Assembly: GCF_000024605.1 (NCBI RefSeq)
Contig: NC_013385.1
Coordinates: 1,998,175 to 2,062,174, forward strand
Length of the DNA: 64,000 nt
Direction: 5' to 3'
Origin: Ammonifex degensii KC4
GTDB lineage: Bacteria > Bacillota > Desulfotomaculia > Desulfotomaculales > Ammonificaceae
Shown here in pieces: positions 664 through 49,126 of the stretch. Each line of letters starts with the position of its first letter. Position 1 is the stretch's first letter. The position numbers were made by a program, and so were the translations under genes. The notes below the pieces were generated by a model that ran no database searches, had not been told where the DNA came from, and was given only the letters and a program-made list of their open reading frames with translations.

Positions 664-694
664 GGCGGTAGGCCAGGAGGGCAGGCCTACCGCC
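664..694. terminator. Hairpin between convergent integrase and regulator genes
   Basis: GGCGGTAGGCC (664-674) and GGCCTACCGCC (684-694) form perfect 11-bp arms around a 9-base loop. It lies directly after the integrase stop and covers the stop codon of the minus-strand XRE gene. There is no clear T-run on either side, so it is a bidirectional terminator or mRNA-end stabiliser by position rather than a textbook intrinsic terminator. Confidence 0.5.
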
Positions 695-902
695 CGTCCT
701 CAGGCTCGTAGACCAGCAGATCTCCCACCTGGCACCCAAGCGCCTCGCAAATCTTCTCCAGTACGCGGTAGTCCACCTTGCGAACGCGGTCGTGGTAAAG
801 TGCGAGGATCGTGTTCTTGGCCAGGCCGGTCTTGCGGGCAAGCTCGCTCATCTTCATGCGGCGCTCGCCCAGCAAGGTGGAAAGCTTGCAGTGGATCGGC
901 AT
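687..902 (-). CDS. Small Cro/CI-family (XRE, HTH_26-like) transcriptional regulator
   Basis: This 71-residue protein is almost entirely one helix-turn-helix domain. MSELARKTGLAKNTI is helix 2-turn-recognition helix, followed by the helix pair KVDYRVLEKICEALGC and the short tail VGDLLVYEPED. That is the pattern of single-domain Cro/CI proteins of the HTH_26 type. It is transcribed away from the coiled-coil gene at 1100, and a 35-bp palindrome lies between them, so autoregulation plus control of the divergent gene is the natural inference. Such small repressors are typical of integrative elements and toxin-antitoxin-like loci. The binding site and partner are not shown by sequence alone. Confidence 0.9.
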   Translation of the reverse strand: MPIHCKLSTLLGERRMKMSELARKTGLAKNTILALYHDRVRKVDYRVLEKICEALGCQVGDLLVYEPEDGR

Positions 903-1099: not shown

Positions 1100-1747
1100 A
1101 TGCTCAAAGGCCTGATCGCGGAGGCGCTGACCCTGCCGGAGGAGCTTGAGAGGTTCCTCCTGGAGGCGGGGGAGGTGAAGGCGAGGCTGGCGAAAGTCGA
1201 GGAGGCCAGGAAGGCCAGGGAGATCGAAGCCCTGAAGCACGCCGCGTCGAACGGCAAGAACGAGGCGGAGAGGAAGGCGGCCATGGCCTCCTTCCTGGCG
1301 AGCGATCCGGAGTACCAGCATCTCAGCCAGGAGGAAAGGAGGGCCAAGGCGAGGCTGCAGGAGCTTGAGGCGGCGGTCGAGGTGGTGAAGGCCAGGGTGA
1401 AGCTCACGAGGGAACTCCTCCACCTGGCGGCCAAGGCGATCGAAGCCAACCACAAAGAAGCGCTAGAGGCGTTCGGCCTCGAAGTCACCGAACCCAGGCA
1501 GGAGGCGAAGAAGAACGGCGTGTGGGAGGCGGATTGGACGTGGGTTCGCGGCGAGGTCACCGGCGTGGAGCGCGGCAAGAAGGAAGGCGTGGTGAAAGTG
1601 CGGATCACCACGCCGGAGGGCAACGAACGGGAAGTGTACGCCAACAACAGCCTCGCCGACAAGTTCAAGGCCAAGCTCGGCGAGAAGGTGGCGGTGAAGG
1701 CGAAGAAGCTAGACAGCGGCAACCTGCTGGCGGTGGCGGTGGACTAG
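1100..1747 (+). CDS. Coiled-coil protein with small C-terminal beta domain, unknown function
   Basis: I do not recognise this 215-residue protein. The ATG at 1100 follows GGAGAGGGGGAG and is preferred over the longer open frame, which would run back through the promoter and operator. Residues 1-135 are almost wholly helical and rich in Glu, Lys, Arg and Ala (repeats such as EEARKAREIEALK), consistent with a long coiled coil. Residues 140-215 begin with tryptophans (WEADWTWVRGEV) and look like a compact beta-barrel or OB/SH3-like fold with alternating Val/Lys strands and a basic surface. A dimeric nucleic-acid-binding or scaffold protein is possible. The gene has its own strong promoter, divergent from an XRE regulator, so it is probably an expressed accessory gene of the element. 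Confidence 0.85.
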   Translation: MLKGLIAEALTLPEELERFLLEAGEVKARLAKVEEARKAREIEALKHAASNGKNEAERKAAMASFLASDPEYQHLSQEERRAKARLQELEAAVEVVKARVKLTRELLHLAAKAIEANHKEALEAFGLEVTEPRQEAKKNGVWEADWTWVRGEVTGVERGKKEGVVKVRITTPEGNEREVYANNSLADKFKAKLGEKVAVKAKKLDSGNLLAVAVD

Positions 1748-2321: not shown

Positions 2322-2587
2322 GGCGGCCAGGGCACAGCGCCTTGGGGCCACGAGGCAGGCCCCAGCAGTGCCGTGGCCCGGTAGTGGTCATCGAGATCGG
2401 CCTCCCACAGGCCGTATGTGGGCTTCAGGAGGCCGGGGGCGTCAGGCTCCCAGGCCACAGGGTGAAAGCCGGGAGGGGAGGCAGGCCCCCTGGCCCCCAC
2501 AGGGCAGAAGACCTTCCGCACCCAAGCCAGGCGGATGCCCAGCTTGGCTTCAAGCTTCTTGACAGCTTTGTGGCTGACGACGAGCAC
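2282..2587 (-). CDS. Hypothetical protein, translationally coupled to the upstream gene
   Basis: This 101-residue protein matches no family I know. It begins at GTG 2587 with GAGGAGG about 9 bases upstream, inside the end of the preceding gene (38-base overlap), so the two are probably translated together. The N-terminus (SHKAVKKLEAKLGIRLAWVRKVF) is a basic amphipathic helix. The rest is rich in Pro, Gly and Trp with no obvious membrane segment or metal motif, though it contains a WEADLDDHY segment. Third-position GC is high, as in neighbouring genes. It belongs to a small minus-strand cluster (2282-3282) downstream of a broken XRE gene. Confidence 0.6.
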   Translation of the reverse strand: MLVVSHKAVKKLEAKLGIRLAWVRKVFCPVGARGPASPPGFHPVAWEPDAPGLLKPTYGLWEADLDDHYRATALLGPASWPQGAVPWPPYSHSHRRHEGRG

Positions 2588-2951
2588 GCCTTTGCTCCTC
2601 CTCTTCCCTCAGCACCCGGCAGACCGGCAGAATCTCGCCCCCATCGACGCGGAGGCACGGACAGCCCTCGAAGGGGATCAGCAGGAGATGGTCTGCGTCC
2701 AGCTCCCAGTCCTCGAAGGCGGAAAGTTCGTGGATGCCGACGGCGGGCGTGCCGGTCTCCAGCCGCAGTTCTTCGGCGAACTCAGCCGCGTCCTGGATGG
2801 ACTCGAAGCCCACCACAGGACTGCCCAGGTAGGTGACCACCCACCACCGCTTCGCCTCGTGGTCAACCACAGGCTTGACAGGGGCGGGCGGGCACCGCCT
2901 GAGCATACACGGCGCGAAGGCCAGGACGGGCCAGAGGAACAGACTGCGCAT
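2550..2951 (-). CDS. Hypothetical exported or membrane-anchored small protein
   Basis: The ATG at 2951 is chosen because it is preceded by a near-perfect ribosome site (AAGGAGGTGAT). The 133-residue product starts with a short hydrophobic stretch (SLFLWPVLAFAPCML) followed by Arg and Cys, which could be a signal or anchor. The body contains KRWWVVTYLGSPVVGFESI and an acidic region, then an alpha/beta-looking part with cysteines (FEGCPCLRVDGG and VCRV) and a highly charged tail (EEEEQRRARRQ). No known domain is recognised. It lies between a 24-residue membrane peptide and the 101-aa gene, and the tight spacing suggests one transcript. Confidence 0.7.
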   Translation of the reverse strand: MRSLFLWPVLAFAPCMLRRCPPAPVKPVVDHEAKRWWVVTYLGSPVVGFESIQDAAEFAEELRLETGTPAVGIHELSAFEDWELDADHLLLIPFEGCPCLRVDGGEILPVCRVLREEEEQRRARRQPQSCQEA

Positions 2952-2980
2952 CGAGATCACCTCCTTCCACAGCTTGGCGT

Positions 2981-3055
2981 TCAGCGGAGAAGTAGCCACA
3001 CGCCCAGTGCGAATGCGGCGAGGTGGAACGCCGTCCACGCGAGGAGGAACCTCAT
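2981..3055 (-). CDS. 24-residue single-span membrane peptide
   Basis: A very short frame starts at ATG 3055 and ends at TGA 2983-2981. An excellent ribosome site (GGAGGAGGTGAT) lies just upstream. The peptide starts MRFLLAWTAFHL and ends ALGVWLLLR, so it is one continuous hydrophobic helix with a positive residue at each end. This is the form of small membrane toxins, holin-like peptides or regulators of membrane proteins. The next gene begins 30 bases downstream with an equally strong ribosome site, supporting a real cistron. Function is unknown. A type I toxin-like or accessory role is only a possibility. Confidence 0.6.
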   Translation of the reverse strand: MRFLLAWTAFHLAAFALGVWLLLR

Positions 3056-3061
3056 GGCCCA

Positions 3062-3282
3062 TCACCTCCTCCTCCACGCACACACCGCCCGCCTCGCGAA
3101 GCCACGCGCGCTGAAAAACTCGCGCTCCTCACAGCCGAGGGCCTCGGCCAGGCGGGAACGGAAGGCCTTACCCGCACGCACGGTGCCGTTCTCTACGACG
3201 GAGAGGTAAGCAGCCTCCCGGCCAGCTCGGTGCAGGTGAGGCCCTTGCGCACGCGGTAGATCTTAATCCTCGTCAGTGCCAC
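3062..3282 (-). pseudogene. Frameshifted XRE-family regulator
   Basis: From GTG 3282 the frame reads RIKIYRVRKGLTCTELAG, the start of a Cro/CI helix-turn-helix, and then stops prematurely. In another frame the domain continues as AAYLSVVENGTVRAGKAFRSRLAEALGC-type sequence (recognition helix and the following helices) and ends at TGA 3064-3062. Joined at the GAGGCTGCT region, the turn between helices 2 and 3 is about four residues too short, so a small deletion rather than a simple one-base slip is likely. A palindrome resembling its operator remains upstream (3306-3321). Loss of this regulator would leave the small genes at 2282-3055 without local control. A sequencing error cannot be excluded, but the missing residues argue against it. 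Confidence 0.7.
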
Positions 3283-3888: not shown

Positions 3889-5184
3889 TCACTCGCCCAC
3901 CCATACGACGAGCCTCCGCTTCCTGCCGCCCCGCACCTCGACTTCGCCCAGCTCCACCAGGCTCCTGACCGCGAGTTCGAAGACGTAGCCCCCGTACCGC
4001 TGGGCGTTGATGGCACGGTACAAATCGCGGAAGGCCATCCGCCTGGCCCGGCGCAGAGTTTTGCGGATCTTCTCCTCCACGATGGCCGTCTTGGTGGCCG
4101 CGTCCACGGGGAAGAGCAGCTGGCGGCACTCGTGTTGCCAGCGCAGGAGCTTGACCACCTTTTCGATCGTGTCGGCTTCGATGGCTTCAAAGTTGCCCCG
4201 CGACACCTCCAGTAGCACGGCCAGCCTCAGGCCGTAGGTTTCCAGGCGCTTGGCGTGAAGGTCGCGGGGCCGTGTTGTTGTGTACCACTCACTCCAGACT
4301 CTTTCAGCTTCGGGCGTCATGCCCAGTTTCCACTCGTAAGGGAGCGCTACCTCTTCTTTGGTGCCCCACGTGCGGATGCGGAACGTCGCCTGCGCGGCCT
4401 TTTCCACGATCTCCCTGAGCCTCCGCTTCAGCTCCTGCACCTGGCCTTCCGGCAGCTCCCTGGGCAGGGGCACGTCCTTCGTCGGCTTACCGGGCACCAC
4501 CCACAGCCTGTTGACGAAGCCGATGTCCAGGAACGCAGGCGTCCACATCGATTCGTAAGTCTCCCTCGTGCAGGCGGCCAGCAGGGAGAGGTGCGTGTCC
4601 TCGAAGCGGATGTTTCGGTGCTTCGTGGGCGCGTCGTAGTTCACGCGGCTGAACAAACTGTTCACGACGGTCAGCAAAACCGAGCCTTGAACCATGGCCT
4701 TGTCCACGAACAGCTTCAGCTCGTCCAGCTCCAGCAAAACGCGGCGTGGGGCTCCAAGCCTTTCCACCGCCACCGCGAGGCCTTCCGCGCTCCCAATGCC
4801 CCGCTGGACATAAGGTGCTAGGTCGCCCAGGGCCTCCTTGAAGAAGTCGCTCACCAGCTCGATGGCCGTGGACTTCCGGGGGTCTGCGCTCTCGCCAACG
4901 AGGACAGTGTAGAGGCGCGGAGGCTCCCGCAAGGCTCCTGCCAGTGTCACGTGCCCGCTGATGGCCGCTCCGAGGGCCGTCAAAGCGGCAAAATACCAGA
5001 ACTGGATTGGAGCTTCCAGATGTTCGGCGAATAGCCTGGCAATGTCCCCGCAGATGCCCGTCAGTGCATCCTCCGGGAAAGGAGGAAGAGCATCTTCTGG
5101 CGGCGAACTAGTTTCTTCGAGCAGGAGACGCCGCTCCTCCGCTTCGAGTTCCGCTAAGCGCCTGATGTGCTCCATCTCCACCAT
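3889..5184 (-). CDS. Replicative helicase-like P-loop protein (DUF3987-like)
   Basis: The ATG at 5184 follows AAAGGAGG at 8 bases and gives 431 residues. The longer open frame upstream is only read-through of the primase gene in another frame. The ATPase core begins near residue 90: a P-loop-like GESADPRKST (97-106) and a Walker B-like LLELDEL (150-156). The remainder is helical, with conserved-looking TRETYESMWTPAFLDIGFVNRLW, as in DUF3987/primase-associated helicase-like proteins. A C-terminal winged-helix-like part (residues 365-431) ends in a basic tail. The P-loop is unusual (A-D-P-R before K-S-T instead of the common glycine-rich loop). It overlaps the primase gene by 31 bases, so both are co-translated and likely act together in replication of the element. 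Confidence 0.8.
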   Translation of the reverse strand: MVEMEHIRRLAELEAEERRLLLEETSSPPEDALPPFPEDALTGICGDIARLFAEHLEAPIQFWYFAALTALGAAISGHVTLAGALREPPRLYTVLVGESADPRKSTAIELVSDFFKEALGDLAPYVQRGIGSAEGLAVAVERLGAPRRVLLELDELKLFVDKAMVQGSVLLTVVNSLFSRVNYDAPTKHRNIRFEDTHLSLLAACTRETYESMWTPAFLDIGFVNRLWVVPGKPTKDVPLPRELPEGQVQELKRRLREIVEKAAQATFRIRTWGTKEEVALPYEWKLGMTPEAERVWSEWYTTTRPRDLHAKRLETYGLRLAVLLEVSRGNFEAIEADTIEKVVKLLRWQHECRQLLFPVDAATKTAIVEEKIRKTLRRARRMAFRDLYRAINAQRYGGYVFELAVRSLVELGEVEVRGGRKRRLVVWVGE

Positions 5185-6005
5185 TTCCCTAGCCTCCTTT
5201 CCAGCTCTTTCTTTGCGATGCTGTCCACCGTGCGCACCACTTCTTCGTCCGGAAGGGGTGGCCTGCACTTGACCTGGTTCCAAGCCAGAAGCAGGTCTAG
5301 CGCCACGTAGGGATCGACCCTCTTCCGTAGCAGGTGCCCGGCCAAAGCGGCGATCGAGTTGTTGCGCTGGCCTTCCTCCACGCCCTCGGAGACCAGCTGT
5401 CGCCACACCTCCACCGGGCGGCCTAAACCCTCCGCTGGCCCGGCCAGAAGCTCTAAGAGCCAACCCGGTGCTTCGGCGATCTGAACCTCGCCCGGCCTGG
5501 AAGAAAATTCCCATTCGTACCGCCTCCCACCAGCGTGGATTGAGGGTGCCGCCACGATGTAGCCGCCCTCCCCGCGAACGTCCAGACCGGGAGCCAGCCT
5601 CACTTTGTTCCCGATGGCCCGGCCCTCAGGCATCCGGAAGAGCAGGTGGCGGCCACCCGAGCCGGTGATTTGCTCCACGGTCTCCGGCAGCTCGCCGTGC
5701 CGCCTCACCAGTTCGTAGAGGGAATCCTCGCCTTCAGGGCCATCGACGTCCAGCACGAAGAAGCCACTGGCTTTGCCGGTAGCGATCCCAATGTTGGCCC
5801 AGGGCCACCTGCGCCACCAGGCCGCGATGGCCTCTGAGTCTTTGCTGGCTTCTTTCACGCCGTGCCGCGTAAGGGGGTGCTTGCCGGGGCTGGGGCAGTC
5901 CACCCGCCCGCAGGTGCAGCGGCCACCTGCGATTGAATGCAATGGGAGCACCGCCCAGCCGAACCTTTCGGCATAGTAAACTGCGGCTTCGGCCAGCTCG
6001 CTCAT
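5154..6005 (-). CDS. Bifunctional primase-polymerase (Prim-Pol) with PriCT domain
   Basis: The 283-residue protein has an N-terminal Prim-Pol domain of the archaeo-eukaryotic primase fold and a C-terminal primase-associated helical domain. The first catalytic acidic pair is DVD (86-88, in VLDVDGPEG). The conserved TGSGGRHLLF (114-123) and LDVRGEGGYIVAAPS (141-155) blocks bind nucleotide and template. Cys30, Cys32, Cys37 and His43 could form a small zinc site. From about residue 210, GQRNNSIAALAGHLLRKR followed by LPDEEVVRTVDSI is typical of PriCT_1. Such proteins make primers and extend them in plasmids, phages and satellites. The start overlaps the preceding XRE gene in an ATGA, and the end overlaps the helicase-like gene. 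Confidence 0.93.
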   Translation of the reverse strand: MSELAEAAVYYAERFGWAVLPLHSIAGGRCTCGRVDCPSPGKHPLTRHGVKEASKDSEAIAAWWRRWPWANIGIATGKASGFFVLDVDGPEGEDSLYELVRRHGELPETVEQITGSGGRHLLFRMPEGRAIGNKVRLAPGLDVRGEGGYIVAAPSIHAGGRRYEWEFSSRPGEVQIAEAPGWLLELLAGPAEGLGRPVEVWRQLVSEGVEEGQRNNSIAALAGHLLRKRVDPYVALDLLLAWNQVKCRPPLPDEEVVRTVDSIAKKELERRLGKWWRWSTSGA

Positions 6006-6205
6006 TCCTGCACCTCCCCGAAGAGTTCGTCCAGCCGGTCAAGCGGCCAGCCCAGGGCTTCGGCGATCTTTATCCGCCAGCCTTGGTAAACAGGCCAAAC
6101 ACCGCGCTCAAGCTTCGAGAGGTTGGAAGGGTGGATTCCCGTCCGCCGCGCGAGTTCAAATTGAGACCATCCGCGCTTTTTCCTCTCGGCTACGAAGCGA
6201 AGCAC
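6002..6205 (-). CDS. XRE-family regulator heading the replication operon
   Basis: GTG 6205 is chosen because GGAGGAG lies just upstream. The longer frame to 6283 would start with a Cys-rich, non-homologous stretch through the promoter region. The 67-residue protein is a single Cro/CI domain: ERKKRGWSQFELARRTGIHPSNLSKLERG contains helix 2 and the recognition helix, followed by RIKIAEALGWPLDRLDELF. Its stop overlaps the primase start (ATGA), so it leads a regulator-primase-helicase operon. Direct GTGTAAA repeats upstream (6249-6268) are a candidate operator. It probably controls copy number, replication or lysogeny-like maintenance of the element and may also affect the divergent gene at 6301. 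Confidence 0.9.
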   Translation of the reverse strand: MLRFVAERKKRGWSQFELARRTGIHPSNLSKLERGVWPVYQGWRIKIAEALGWPLDRLDELFGEVQE

Positions 6206-6248
6206 GCCTCTCCTCCTCCCTTTCGAGCTTGCGTTTCCACTGGTTCCA

Positions 6249-6268
6249 GTGTAAACTGTAGGTGTAAA
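6249..6268. promoter_or_regulatory. Direct repeats in the divergent control region
   Basis: GTGTAAA occurs at 6249-6255 and again at 6262-6268, 13 bases apart, in the 95-base space between the divergent XRE gene and the gene at 6301. On the minus strand this reads TTTACAC twice, with TTGTTTTACACC resembling promoter elements. It is a likely regulator site by position. Confidence 0.45.
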
Positions 6269-6300
6269 ACAACAGCAGAACACAGGAGGTGACCGGGGCG

Positions 6301-7230
6301 GTGCTCGGTGCCAGGCTCTATACCTATCCCGCGCGTGTGGTGGCTAGGGAGGAGCCTCTGCGCGATCCCCTGCGCGAGGCCATCGCCCGCAGGTTGGGCC
6401 TCCCGCCTGTGGAGAGGGTTTTAGTCCCCGTCCGCTGTGGCCGGGTGAGGAGGGTGGTTCTGGAAGAGCTTGCCCAGGCCGTGCTGGACGTGGTGGAGGG
6501 CCAGCTCACGGTCGAGGGCCTGCTGGCCCGCTACGGCAACTTCTTCGGTGGCCCGGTGGCCGAGAGGGAGGCCGCCAGGCGGCTCCTCGGCCTCTTCTTC
6601 CTGCTGGCCACGCGTCTACTGCTCGAACGCAGGCCTCCCGCCGTGTTCTGGATCGAGCGCTGGGTTCTCGGCCCCTTCAAGCGCTACGCCGAGGGAGTTC
6701 CTGAGGAGGAGCGCCTGGCCGTGGCCGTGCGTGAGGGGGAGGGCGTGGTTCTGGGCGGGCCGGGCGAGAGGGCCTTCACTGTGGTTGACATGGTGAACTT
6801 CCTGCCCGTGTGGGTGCCCGCCGGGGAGGGCGACTGGCCCGTGTTCCACTTGCCACAGGAATGGCCCACCACGCGGGAAGAGATCACACGCTACGCCCAG
6901 GCCCAGCTCCAGGCCCACGCGCCGTTCGTGAGCTTCCGGGCCGAGTGGCGGGATGGCGTGCTGGAAGTCCAGCCATCCAGCCTCGTGGACGGCCTGTTGC
7001 TTTACCTCTGCGCGAAGGAGGTGAGGATTGAGGTGGGGAAGAAAAGGCTGAGCACGTACGATCGCCGTGTCGTCGAGGACTACTTCCACGTGTACCGCAG
7101 GCGGGGAAAGATCACGGAAGAGGAGTGCCGGAAGGCCATAGCCGCCGTCAAGCAGGCGTGGCGGAGAGGGAAGCGCGACAGGGCCGCGCTGAGGGAGATC
7201 GGCTGGCGGGCCATCAGGGAGGATTTTTGA
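6301..7230 (+). CDS. Unrecognised 309-residue protein at the element's right end
   Basis: GTG 6301 is preferred because it lies 11 bases after AGGAGG. GTG 6289 overlaps that ribosome site. The protein has no domain I can name. Residues 1-130 are helical and rich in Arg and Leu (EAIARRLGLPPVERVL and AARRLLGLFFLLATRLLLERR, the latter partly hydrophobic). A middle part contains VVDMVNFLPVWVP. The C-terminal 90 residues (KKRLSTYDRRVVEDYFHVYRRRGKITEEECRKAI) look like a basic, helical, possibly DNA-binding region. It is divergent from the replication operon and is the last gene before the tRNA scar. That is a typical place for an excision or replication accessory factor, or for cargo such as a defence gene. 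None of these is shown. Confidence 0.8.
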   Translation: MLGARLYTYPARVVAREEPLRDPLREAIARRLGLPPVERVLVPVRCGRVRRVVLEELAQAVLDVVEGQLTVEGLLARYGNFFGGPVAEREAARRLLGLFFLLATRLLLERRPPAVFWIERWVLGPFKRYAEGVPEEERLAVAVREGEGVVLGGPGERAFTVVDMVNFLPVWVPAGEGDWPVFHLPQEWPTTREEITRYAQAQLQAHAPFVSFRAEWRDGVLEVQPSSLVDGLLLYLCAKEVRIEVGKKRLSTYDRRVVEDYFHVYRRRGKITEEECRKAIAAVKQAWRRGKRDRAALREIGWRAIREDF

Positions 7231-7332
7231 CGGTGAAACAGGAGGAACCCTGCTCCCCTGTGGCGAATTCCACAGGCAACGGATCTTCCGGTGGCCCGGG
7301 CCAGGCCGTTCAGGGCTCGACGGGCGGGATTC

Positions 7333-7387
7333 ACAGCGTGGCCTCCAAAGCCGCGGGCTGTGGGTTCAAGTCCTGCCTCCCCCGCCA
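7333..7387 (+). other. 3' fragment of tRNA-Trp (CCA anticodon): attachment-site scar
   Basis: From ACAGC to the encoded CCA (ending 7387), the sequence is a clear 3' part of tRNA-Trp. It shows an anticodon stem GTGGC/GCCGC, loop CTCCAAA with anticodon CCA (7345-7347), T-loop TTCAAGT with its stem, the 3' acceptor strand CTCCCCC, the discriminator G and CCA. The matching 5' acceptor (GGGGGAG) and a normal D-arm are absent upstream, where the DNA instead contains palindromes (CCTGTGG/CCACAGG at 7257-7276 and TGGCCCGGGCCA at 7292-7303). This is the expected attR after integration of an element into tRNA-Trp, with the functional gene at the other end. Confidence 0.8.
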
Positions 7388-7456: not shown

Positions 7457-7846
7457 GTGCGTGGACACGAGGAAAAGGGATCTTTCAGCCTGTCCGCCGT
7501 GGGACAGGGCATTTTCGGGGCGGCTTCCTTCGTCTTGGGCTTCACCCTTTTGACCGCCGCGCTCTTCTACTTCGCCCCTTTACCTGAAAGGCTCCTTCCC
7601 TATTTCGCCAGCTCCGGGCTCTTCCTGGGGAGCTTCGTCGGCGGGGTTCTGGCAGCCCGCCGGGCGGCGAGTAAGGTGCTGCTGCACGGCCTGACCGTAG
7701 GAACGGCCCTCTTCATCCTCCTCTGGTTCACCTCCCTCGTTTTCTACCCGGGGCCGGTGGTGACTGCCCATCTATTGAAGAAGCTTTTCCTGCTCCTCCT
7801 CGGCGGCGCTTTAGGGAGCACTTTGGGGGCAACTCTACTTTCGTGA
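7457..7846 (+). CDS. TIGR04086/YrzE-like small membrane protein
   Basis: The GTG at 7457 follows GGAGGAGGGG. The 129-residue product has four hydrophobic segments at about residues 14-40, 45-68, 75-97 and 105-128, with small-residue-rich packing (GSFVGGVLAARRA and GGALGSTLGA). This matches the TIGR04086/YrzE family of four-helix membrane proteins of unknown function in Firmicutes. It is the first gene right of the tRNA-Trp scar, so it belongs to the core chromosome. It converges with the peptidase gene and overlaps its 3' end by 12 bases, which leaves no room for a separate terminator. Confidence 0.8.
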   Translation: MRGHEEKGSFSLSAVGQGIFGAASFVLGFTLLTAALFYFAPLPERLLPYFASSGLFLGSFVGGVLAARRAASKVLLHGLTVGTALFILLWFTSLVFYPGPVVTAHLLKKLFLLLLGGALGSTLGATLLS

Positions 7847-49029: not shown

Positions 49030-49126
49030 GGGAGTGGACGGATCCTGGTGGATCTCCTGGCCTTCAAAGCCAGCTGGCGGGCAGGAAAAAGTCCGCGGTA
49101 GGTTCGATTCCTACCCACTCCCGCCA
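49030..49126 (+). tRNA. selC: Selenocysteine tRNA (UCA anticodon)
   Basis: The 97-nt sequence has an 8-bp acceptor stem (GGGAGTGG at 49030-49037 with CCACTCCC at 49115-49122), discriminator G and encoded CCA. The anticodon arm CTGGC-CTTCAAA-GCCAG carries TCA at 49064-49066. A long extra arm (GCTGGCGGGCAGGAAAAAGTCCGC region) follows, then a T arm GTAGG-TTCGATT-CCTAC. The long acceptor, the large variable arm and UCA anticodon are diagnostic of tRNA-Sec. It shows that the organism reads UGA as selenocysteine in some mRNAs. SelA, SelB and SelD are not in the window. Confidence 0.96.

Follow-up and report, generated by a model that had tools for sequence, protein, structure and literature searches.

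A displaced tRNA-Trp end bounds a small integrated element of Ammonifex degensii whose twin carries a different integration cassette

The window analyzed here is the whole 64,000-nucleotide stretch of the Ammonifex degensii KC4 chromosome (contig NC_013385.1, referred to as G000:C1) that begins at C1:1998175. Its left part lies in an integrated element of 7,781 bp, measured start-to-start between two 48-base tRNA-Trp repeats. Rightwards from the tRNA, the element opens with the gene of a tyrosine integrase of 317 aa (start at G000:C1:1997872; 1-651 in the window, plus strand), followed by a small Cro/C1-type regulator of 71 aa with a family match to HTH_26 (687-902, minus strand) and by a 215-aa protein (1100-1747, plus strand), which is nearly identical in a second copy of the element described below and for which no convincing family match was found in Pfam, NCBIfam, or PHROGs. 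Next come poorly defined frames, including a 177-aa open frame (2550-3083, minus strand) that is an uncertain gene and is 92% identical at the amino acid level in the second copy. These are followed by a DUF3987 putative replicative helicase with an uncertain start codon (3889-5187, minus strand; Pfam DUF3987 E 9e-12 and a weak PHROG helicase match), the P-loop of which looks atypical (GESADPRKST), a bifunctional DNA primase/polymerase with Prim-Pol and PriCT-1 domains (5154-6005, minus strand; Pfam Prim-Pol E 1e-52, PriCT_1 E 2e-14), and a 93-aa regulator with a family match to HTH_3 (6002-6283, minus strand). At the right end, a 313-aa protein (6289-7230, plus strand) is 95% identical in the second copy, and its gene stops about 110 bases before the right attachment site (attR). 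An inverted repeat common to both copies, CCTGTGG-CGAATT-CCACAGG (7257-7276), lies just inside the right junction, and the non-coding attP right arm (7279-7339), which differs from the second copy, falls within the int-attP cassette that appears to have been exchanged. A DUF3792 membrane protein (7457-7846, plus strand) belongs to the chromosomal flank outside the element.

Within 7333-7387, the anticodon stem GTGGC/GCCGC occupies window positions 7338-7342 and 7350-7354 and encloses the loop CTCCAAA (7343-7349) with the anticodon CCA at 7345-7347. The T arm, the 3' acceptor strand, and the discriminator G with CCA are present as well, which accounts for every part of tRNA-Trp that the preliminary description had listed (anticodon arm, T arm, 3' acceptor strand, and CCA). 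ARAGORN called no tRNA at 7333-7387, Rfam returned for the fragment only a sub-threshold match to tRNA-Sec (22.9 bits vs a cut-off of 47), and when the 77 bases up to 7387 were folded, the best structure lacked the cloverleaf form to which the complete tRNA-Trp comes close. Taken together, folding, ARAGORN, and Rfam show a fragment without a D arm or a matching 5' acceptor strand, in agreement with the absence of both that had been claimed. Weak Rfam hairpin matches beside attR, to microRNA and lncRNA families, were dismissed as chance. A search of a phage collection with the fragment yielded mainly generic tRNA-Trp matches.

When the host genome was searched with the fragment, the sole other strong match was a stretch of 48 bases with 100% identity (E 6e-19), and an exact match of this length and E value in a 2.16-Mb genome rules out chance. 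The repeat joins the attR core, the displaced 3' part of tRNA-Trp at 7340-7387 (plus strand), to G000:C1:1997733-1997780 (attL), which sits inside a complete tRNA-Trp (CCA) at G000:C1:1997704-1997780 called by both ARAGORN and Rfam. The span of 7333-7387 originally given holds for the tRNA fragment, but the exact repeat is shorter, starting at 7340 and covering 48 bases. The complete gene ends 394 bases left of window base 1, on the side where a functional tRNA-Trp with an identical 3' part had been predicted. The intact integrase gene starts 92 bases after it, and its catalytic residues R, H-R, and Y are readable in the sequence; matches to Pfam Phage_integrase (E 3e-28) and to a PHROG integrase (E 6e-53) corroborate the tyrosine recombinase that had been recognized at the other visible end.

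G001, the one further genome of this genus among those searched, provided the comparison with a related genome proposed in the preliminary description, and in it an uninterrupted tRNA-Trp is directly followed by a homologue (95% identical) of the gene at 7457. The host flanks, joined at the tRNA, align unbroken to contig C23 of G001 at 89%, and the tRNA itself is identical at 77/77 bases. Thus the repeat, the adjoining integrase, and the empty site all agree with the attR of an element integrated into tRNA-Trp, as had been proposed. Partial tRNA genes have several origins (PMC9897764), and a degenerate tRNA-Trp pseudogene or an ordinary duplicate would involve no integration at all. We find this scarcely credible here, as the 48 bases are exactly identical through the CCA end and the integrase directly follows the complete copy, whereas a decayed copy would carry errors and would not coincide with an insertion boundary; the clean empty site in G001 already refutes it. 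On the upstream side of tRNA-Trp, an ISLre2-family transposase gene was observed about 110 bases away (G000:C1 about 1996188-1997591; L038:8189-9592). This stretch is absent from G001, so that a second insertion has struck the upstream side of the tRNA gene, where an apparent TTGACT/TATAAT promoter was left in place. A TnpB-like transposase-associated gene of 437 aa (L038:4446-5759) was also recognized by eye, in a stretch absent from G001 according to the alignment.

The element possesses the features that define a tRNA-gene island, namely a complete tRNA with an identical 3' fragment, an internal integrase, and an uninterrupted site in a relative. An Islander-type database holds 2,083 tRNA-integrated islands and 3,760 with a 3' fragment (PMC4383910), and the element is like these islands in its regenerated tRNA, its displaced 3' fragment at the opposite end, its internal tyrosine integrase, and its anticodon-centered attachment site. 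Unlike the usual ones, it is small and has a near-identical twin in another tRNA, although the principle is identical. As is generally understood for tRNA islands (PMC4383910), the fragment at 7340-7387 would be the displaced original 3' end of the host gene, and the element would have supplied the 3' half of the tRNA now in use.

On the basis of its gene content, the element reads as a cryptic integrated replicon. Its AEP primase and helicase-like ATPase (Prim-Pol, PriCT-1, and DUF3987) are the combination that characterizes the cryptic AEP-primase type, and a role as replicative helicase tied to the AEP primases of integrated elements has been suggested for DUF3987 (PMC5862659). The likeness to those elements extends to PriCT-1, the DUF3987-type putative helicase, tRNA integration, and the absence of phage and conjugation genes. 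However, that study covers the PrimPol-PV1 families, of which the Prim-Pol here (Pfam PF09250) is at most a candidate member, and the primase and DUF3987 form one fused protein there but separate overlapping genes here. No relaxase or conjugation genes, which distinguish integrative conjugative and mobilizable elements, were matched among the main frames in Pfam and NCBIfam, and PADLOC found a defense gene in none of five proteins. A phage satellite or prophage remnant packaged by a helper phage, as opposed to an integrated plasmid, is a possible but less favored identity. The size, terminal integrase, HTH regulators, and primase fit the minimal gene sets of small satellites generally, and relatives of Prim-Pol are common in phages, but no phage-structural genes were recognized among the main frames (Pfam, PHROGs, NCBIfam) and no terminase, packaging, or capsid-interfering gene among the proteins tested (PHROGs). 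Likewise, no confirmed relatives of the integrase, DUF3987, and 313-aa proteins were found in IMG/VR, and the closest Prim-Pol found beyond the host genome belongs to a small circular plasmid.

This closest Prim-Pol, 61% identical, is found on plasmid unnamed2 of Thermaerobacter sp. FW80 (NZ_CP037897.1), a small circle that is like the cryptic integrated replicon in carrying a tyrosine recombinase, an HTH gene, and a primase. Unlike the element, the plasmid is extrachromosomal, its primase bears a P4-family annotation and is part of one long fusion protein, and its recombinase is only 29% identical to that of the element; no clear tRNA-derived attP was found in it. In its record (L134; 8,456 bp) the first 1,570 bases recur at the end, which probably means that these 1,570 bases were assembled twice and that the real circle measures 6,886 bp. 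Among GTDB contigs, Prim-Pol matched two distant loci only, and a plasmid search with the 313-aa and DUF3987 proteins matched nothing. A third, more distant Prim-Pol gene (42%) was observed in the host at G000:C1:890866-891642, possibly within another integrated element.

The second copy resides in the same chromosome and measures 7,744 bp (C1:1194042-1201843, converted from the reverse-complemented locus L102). It is bounded by a 58-base exact repeat in tRNA-Leu(UAA), beside which lies its integrase gene (C1:1200809-1201711). In G001, the tRNA-Leu(UAA) at the corresponding place is intact and the second copy is absent; about 22 bases beyond the tRNA, a different stretch of 3.2 kb begins. Aligned over the whole backbone, the two copies are 96.1% identical. 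Identical blocks of 1,036, 625, 573, and 558 bases alternate with patches of 74-90% identity, which makes the backbone a recombined mosaic; the longest identical run of 1,036 bases compares with at most 335 in 2,000 shuffles of the same mismatches. The searches for relatives turned up no third element that shares this backbone.

Most backbone proteins are 92-99% identical between the copies, the int region about 45-66%, and the integrases 50% at the amino acid level. The change from near-identical to diverged sequence is abrupt: at the right junction identity drops sharply at 7278/7279, two bases past the inverted repeat, and the left junction falls at about 626-668 of the window, near the int 3' end. 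The C-terminal motif RAPR(R/K)LD is common to both host integrases and missing from other clade members, which suggests that this junction lies inside the end of the int gene. In the circular form, the differing part would be contiguous, running through the right arm, the tRNA core, the left arm, and int over about 1.1 kb. The simplest reading of these comparisons is that exchange of an int-attP cassette switched the tRNA target. For archaeal plasmids, the modular swapping of integration functions among mobile elements has been reviewed (PMC8371274), and here too the integration module appears to have its own history and to be separable from the rest of the element. Unlike those cases, both products are found in one bacterial chromosome, with different tRNA targets and junctions placed within tens of bases.

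Two other histories would also yield such a pair. A single integrase of relaxed specificity might have used both tRNA-Trp and tRNA-Leu, with the differences at the ends accumulating afterwards, a proposal that accommodates the near-identical backbones and the anticodon-loop pattern CTNNAAA common to both targets. We judge it very improbable, given that the integrases are just 50% identical against 92-99% for most backbone proteins, that the sequence passes abruptly from diverged to near-identical at two points, each intergenic or at a gene end, and that the 3' tRNA sequence in each copy is that of its own target. The main rival to a cassette swap is partial gene conversion between two unlike residents: distantly related elements would have met, and conversion would have homogenized their backbones but not the int-attP ends, which were too different, with no swap in the lineage. 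Long identical blocks alternating with patches of 74-90% are the expected trace of partial conversion, yet identity in the int region falls below that of every backbone patch, and an unconverted backbone relative was not found. We consider this second history unlikely, and it differs from a swap mainly in the extent and timing of exchange. The account that we regard as probable is that one chromosome holds two copies of a small Prim-Pol replicon differing essentially in a single contiguous int-attP cassette, that exchange of this cassette allows the element two compatible homes, in tRNA-Trp and tRNA-Leu(UAA), as backbone homogenization by recombination goes on, and that the clade has shifted isotype repeatedly at a constant anticodon-loop sublocation.

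Integrases of this clade (E <= 1e-50) were found in 18/113 genomes of the order, and a tRNA lies directly upstream in 18 of the 25 integrase-clade loci examined. The target tRNAs are Trp, Cys, Leu (three anticodons), Arg, Gly, and Sec. Both ends were located for five elements (7,781, 7,744, 6,471, 7,057, and 10,941 bp), in tRNA-Trp (two), tRNA-Leu (two), and tRNA-Sec. The direct repeats of all five begin at or just 5' of the anticodon stem, starts that correspond to the anticodon-loop class (sublocation A), with the crossover point itself inferred. The integrase tree requires 12 changes among nine target labels (one being 'no tRNA found') where the minimum is 8, with many weak branches, and suggests that tRNA targets change repeatedly within the clade; the branch leading to the integrase of the tRNA-Leu copy is long and has poor support. 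Prim-Pol genes occur within several kb of a clade integrase in G000 (twice), G001, G014, G065, and G080, and this co-occurrence makes a loose element family likely, although gene content varies among its members. Similarity between the 313-aa protein and the right-end gene of the G001 element was at chance level only. The window also contains a tRNA-Sec gene at 49030-49126, and a same-clade integrase adjoins tRNA-Sec in the relatives G015 and G034, and in the latter a 76-base repeat delimits an element of 10.9 kb. In G014 (L107:12728-12804), ARAGORN calls the attR fragment of a tRNA-Trp element a full tRNA-Trp; its 5' part is unlike a D arm, which makes it an example of a fragment mis-called as a gene.

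With high confidence we interpret 7340-7387 as the attR core of a 7,781-bp site-specifically integrated element that is predicted to have recombined in an anticodon loop and whose twin is best accounted for by int-attP cassette exchange. The integrase would recombine the circular attP with the anticodon loop of tRNA-Trp, and we infer that the exact crossover point lies in this loop, with CTCCAAA (7343-7349, plus strand) as the predicted 7-bp overlap flanked by the palindrome of the anticodon stem. The attP of the element would bear the tRNA's own 3' part, so that integration would regenerate the tRNA at attL and displace the original host 3' part to attR. An excised circle of the element would probably replicate with its own Prim-Pol primase and DUF3987 helicase, as the domain matches suggest. 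Recognized transfer genes are absent, and its mobility would therefore have to depend on a helper phage, a conjugative plasmid, or natural DNA uptake.

Islands in tRNA genes and exchange of integrase modules are already known, and the attR itself is ordinary, even textbook. The less ordinary part is the pair of twin copies with exchanged integration cassettes, a natural experiment on target change in which integrase and attP would have been replaced jointly and the rest kept. Clade members with located ends cut the anticodon loops of different tRNAs and so provide matched pairs of integrase and target, which could be used to learn which features of the enzyme read which tRNA. Integrases of this clade could also become genetic tools in their own host lineages.
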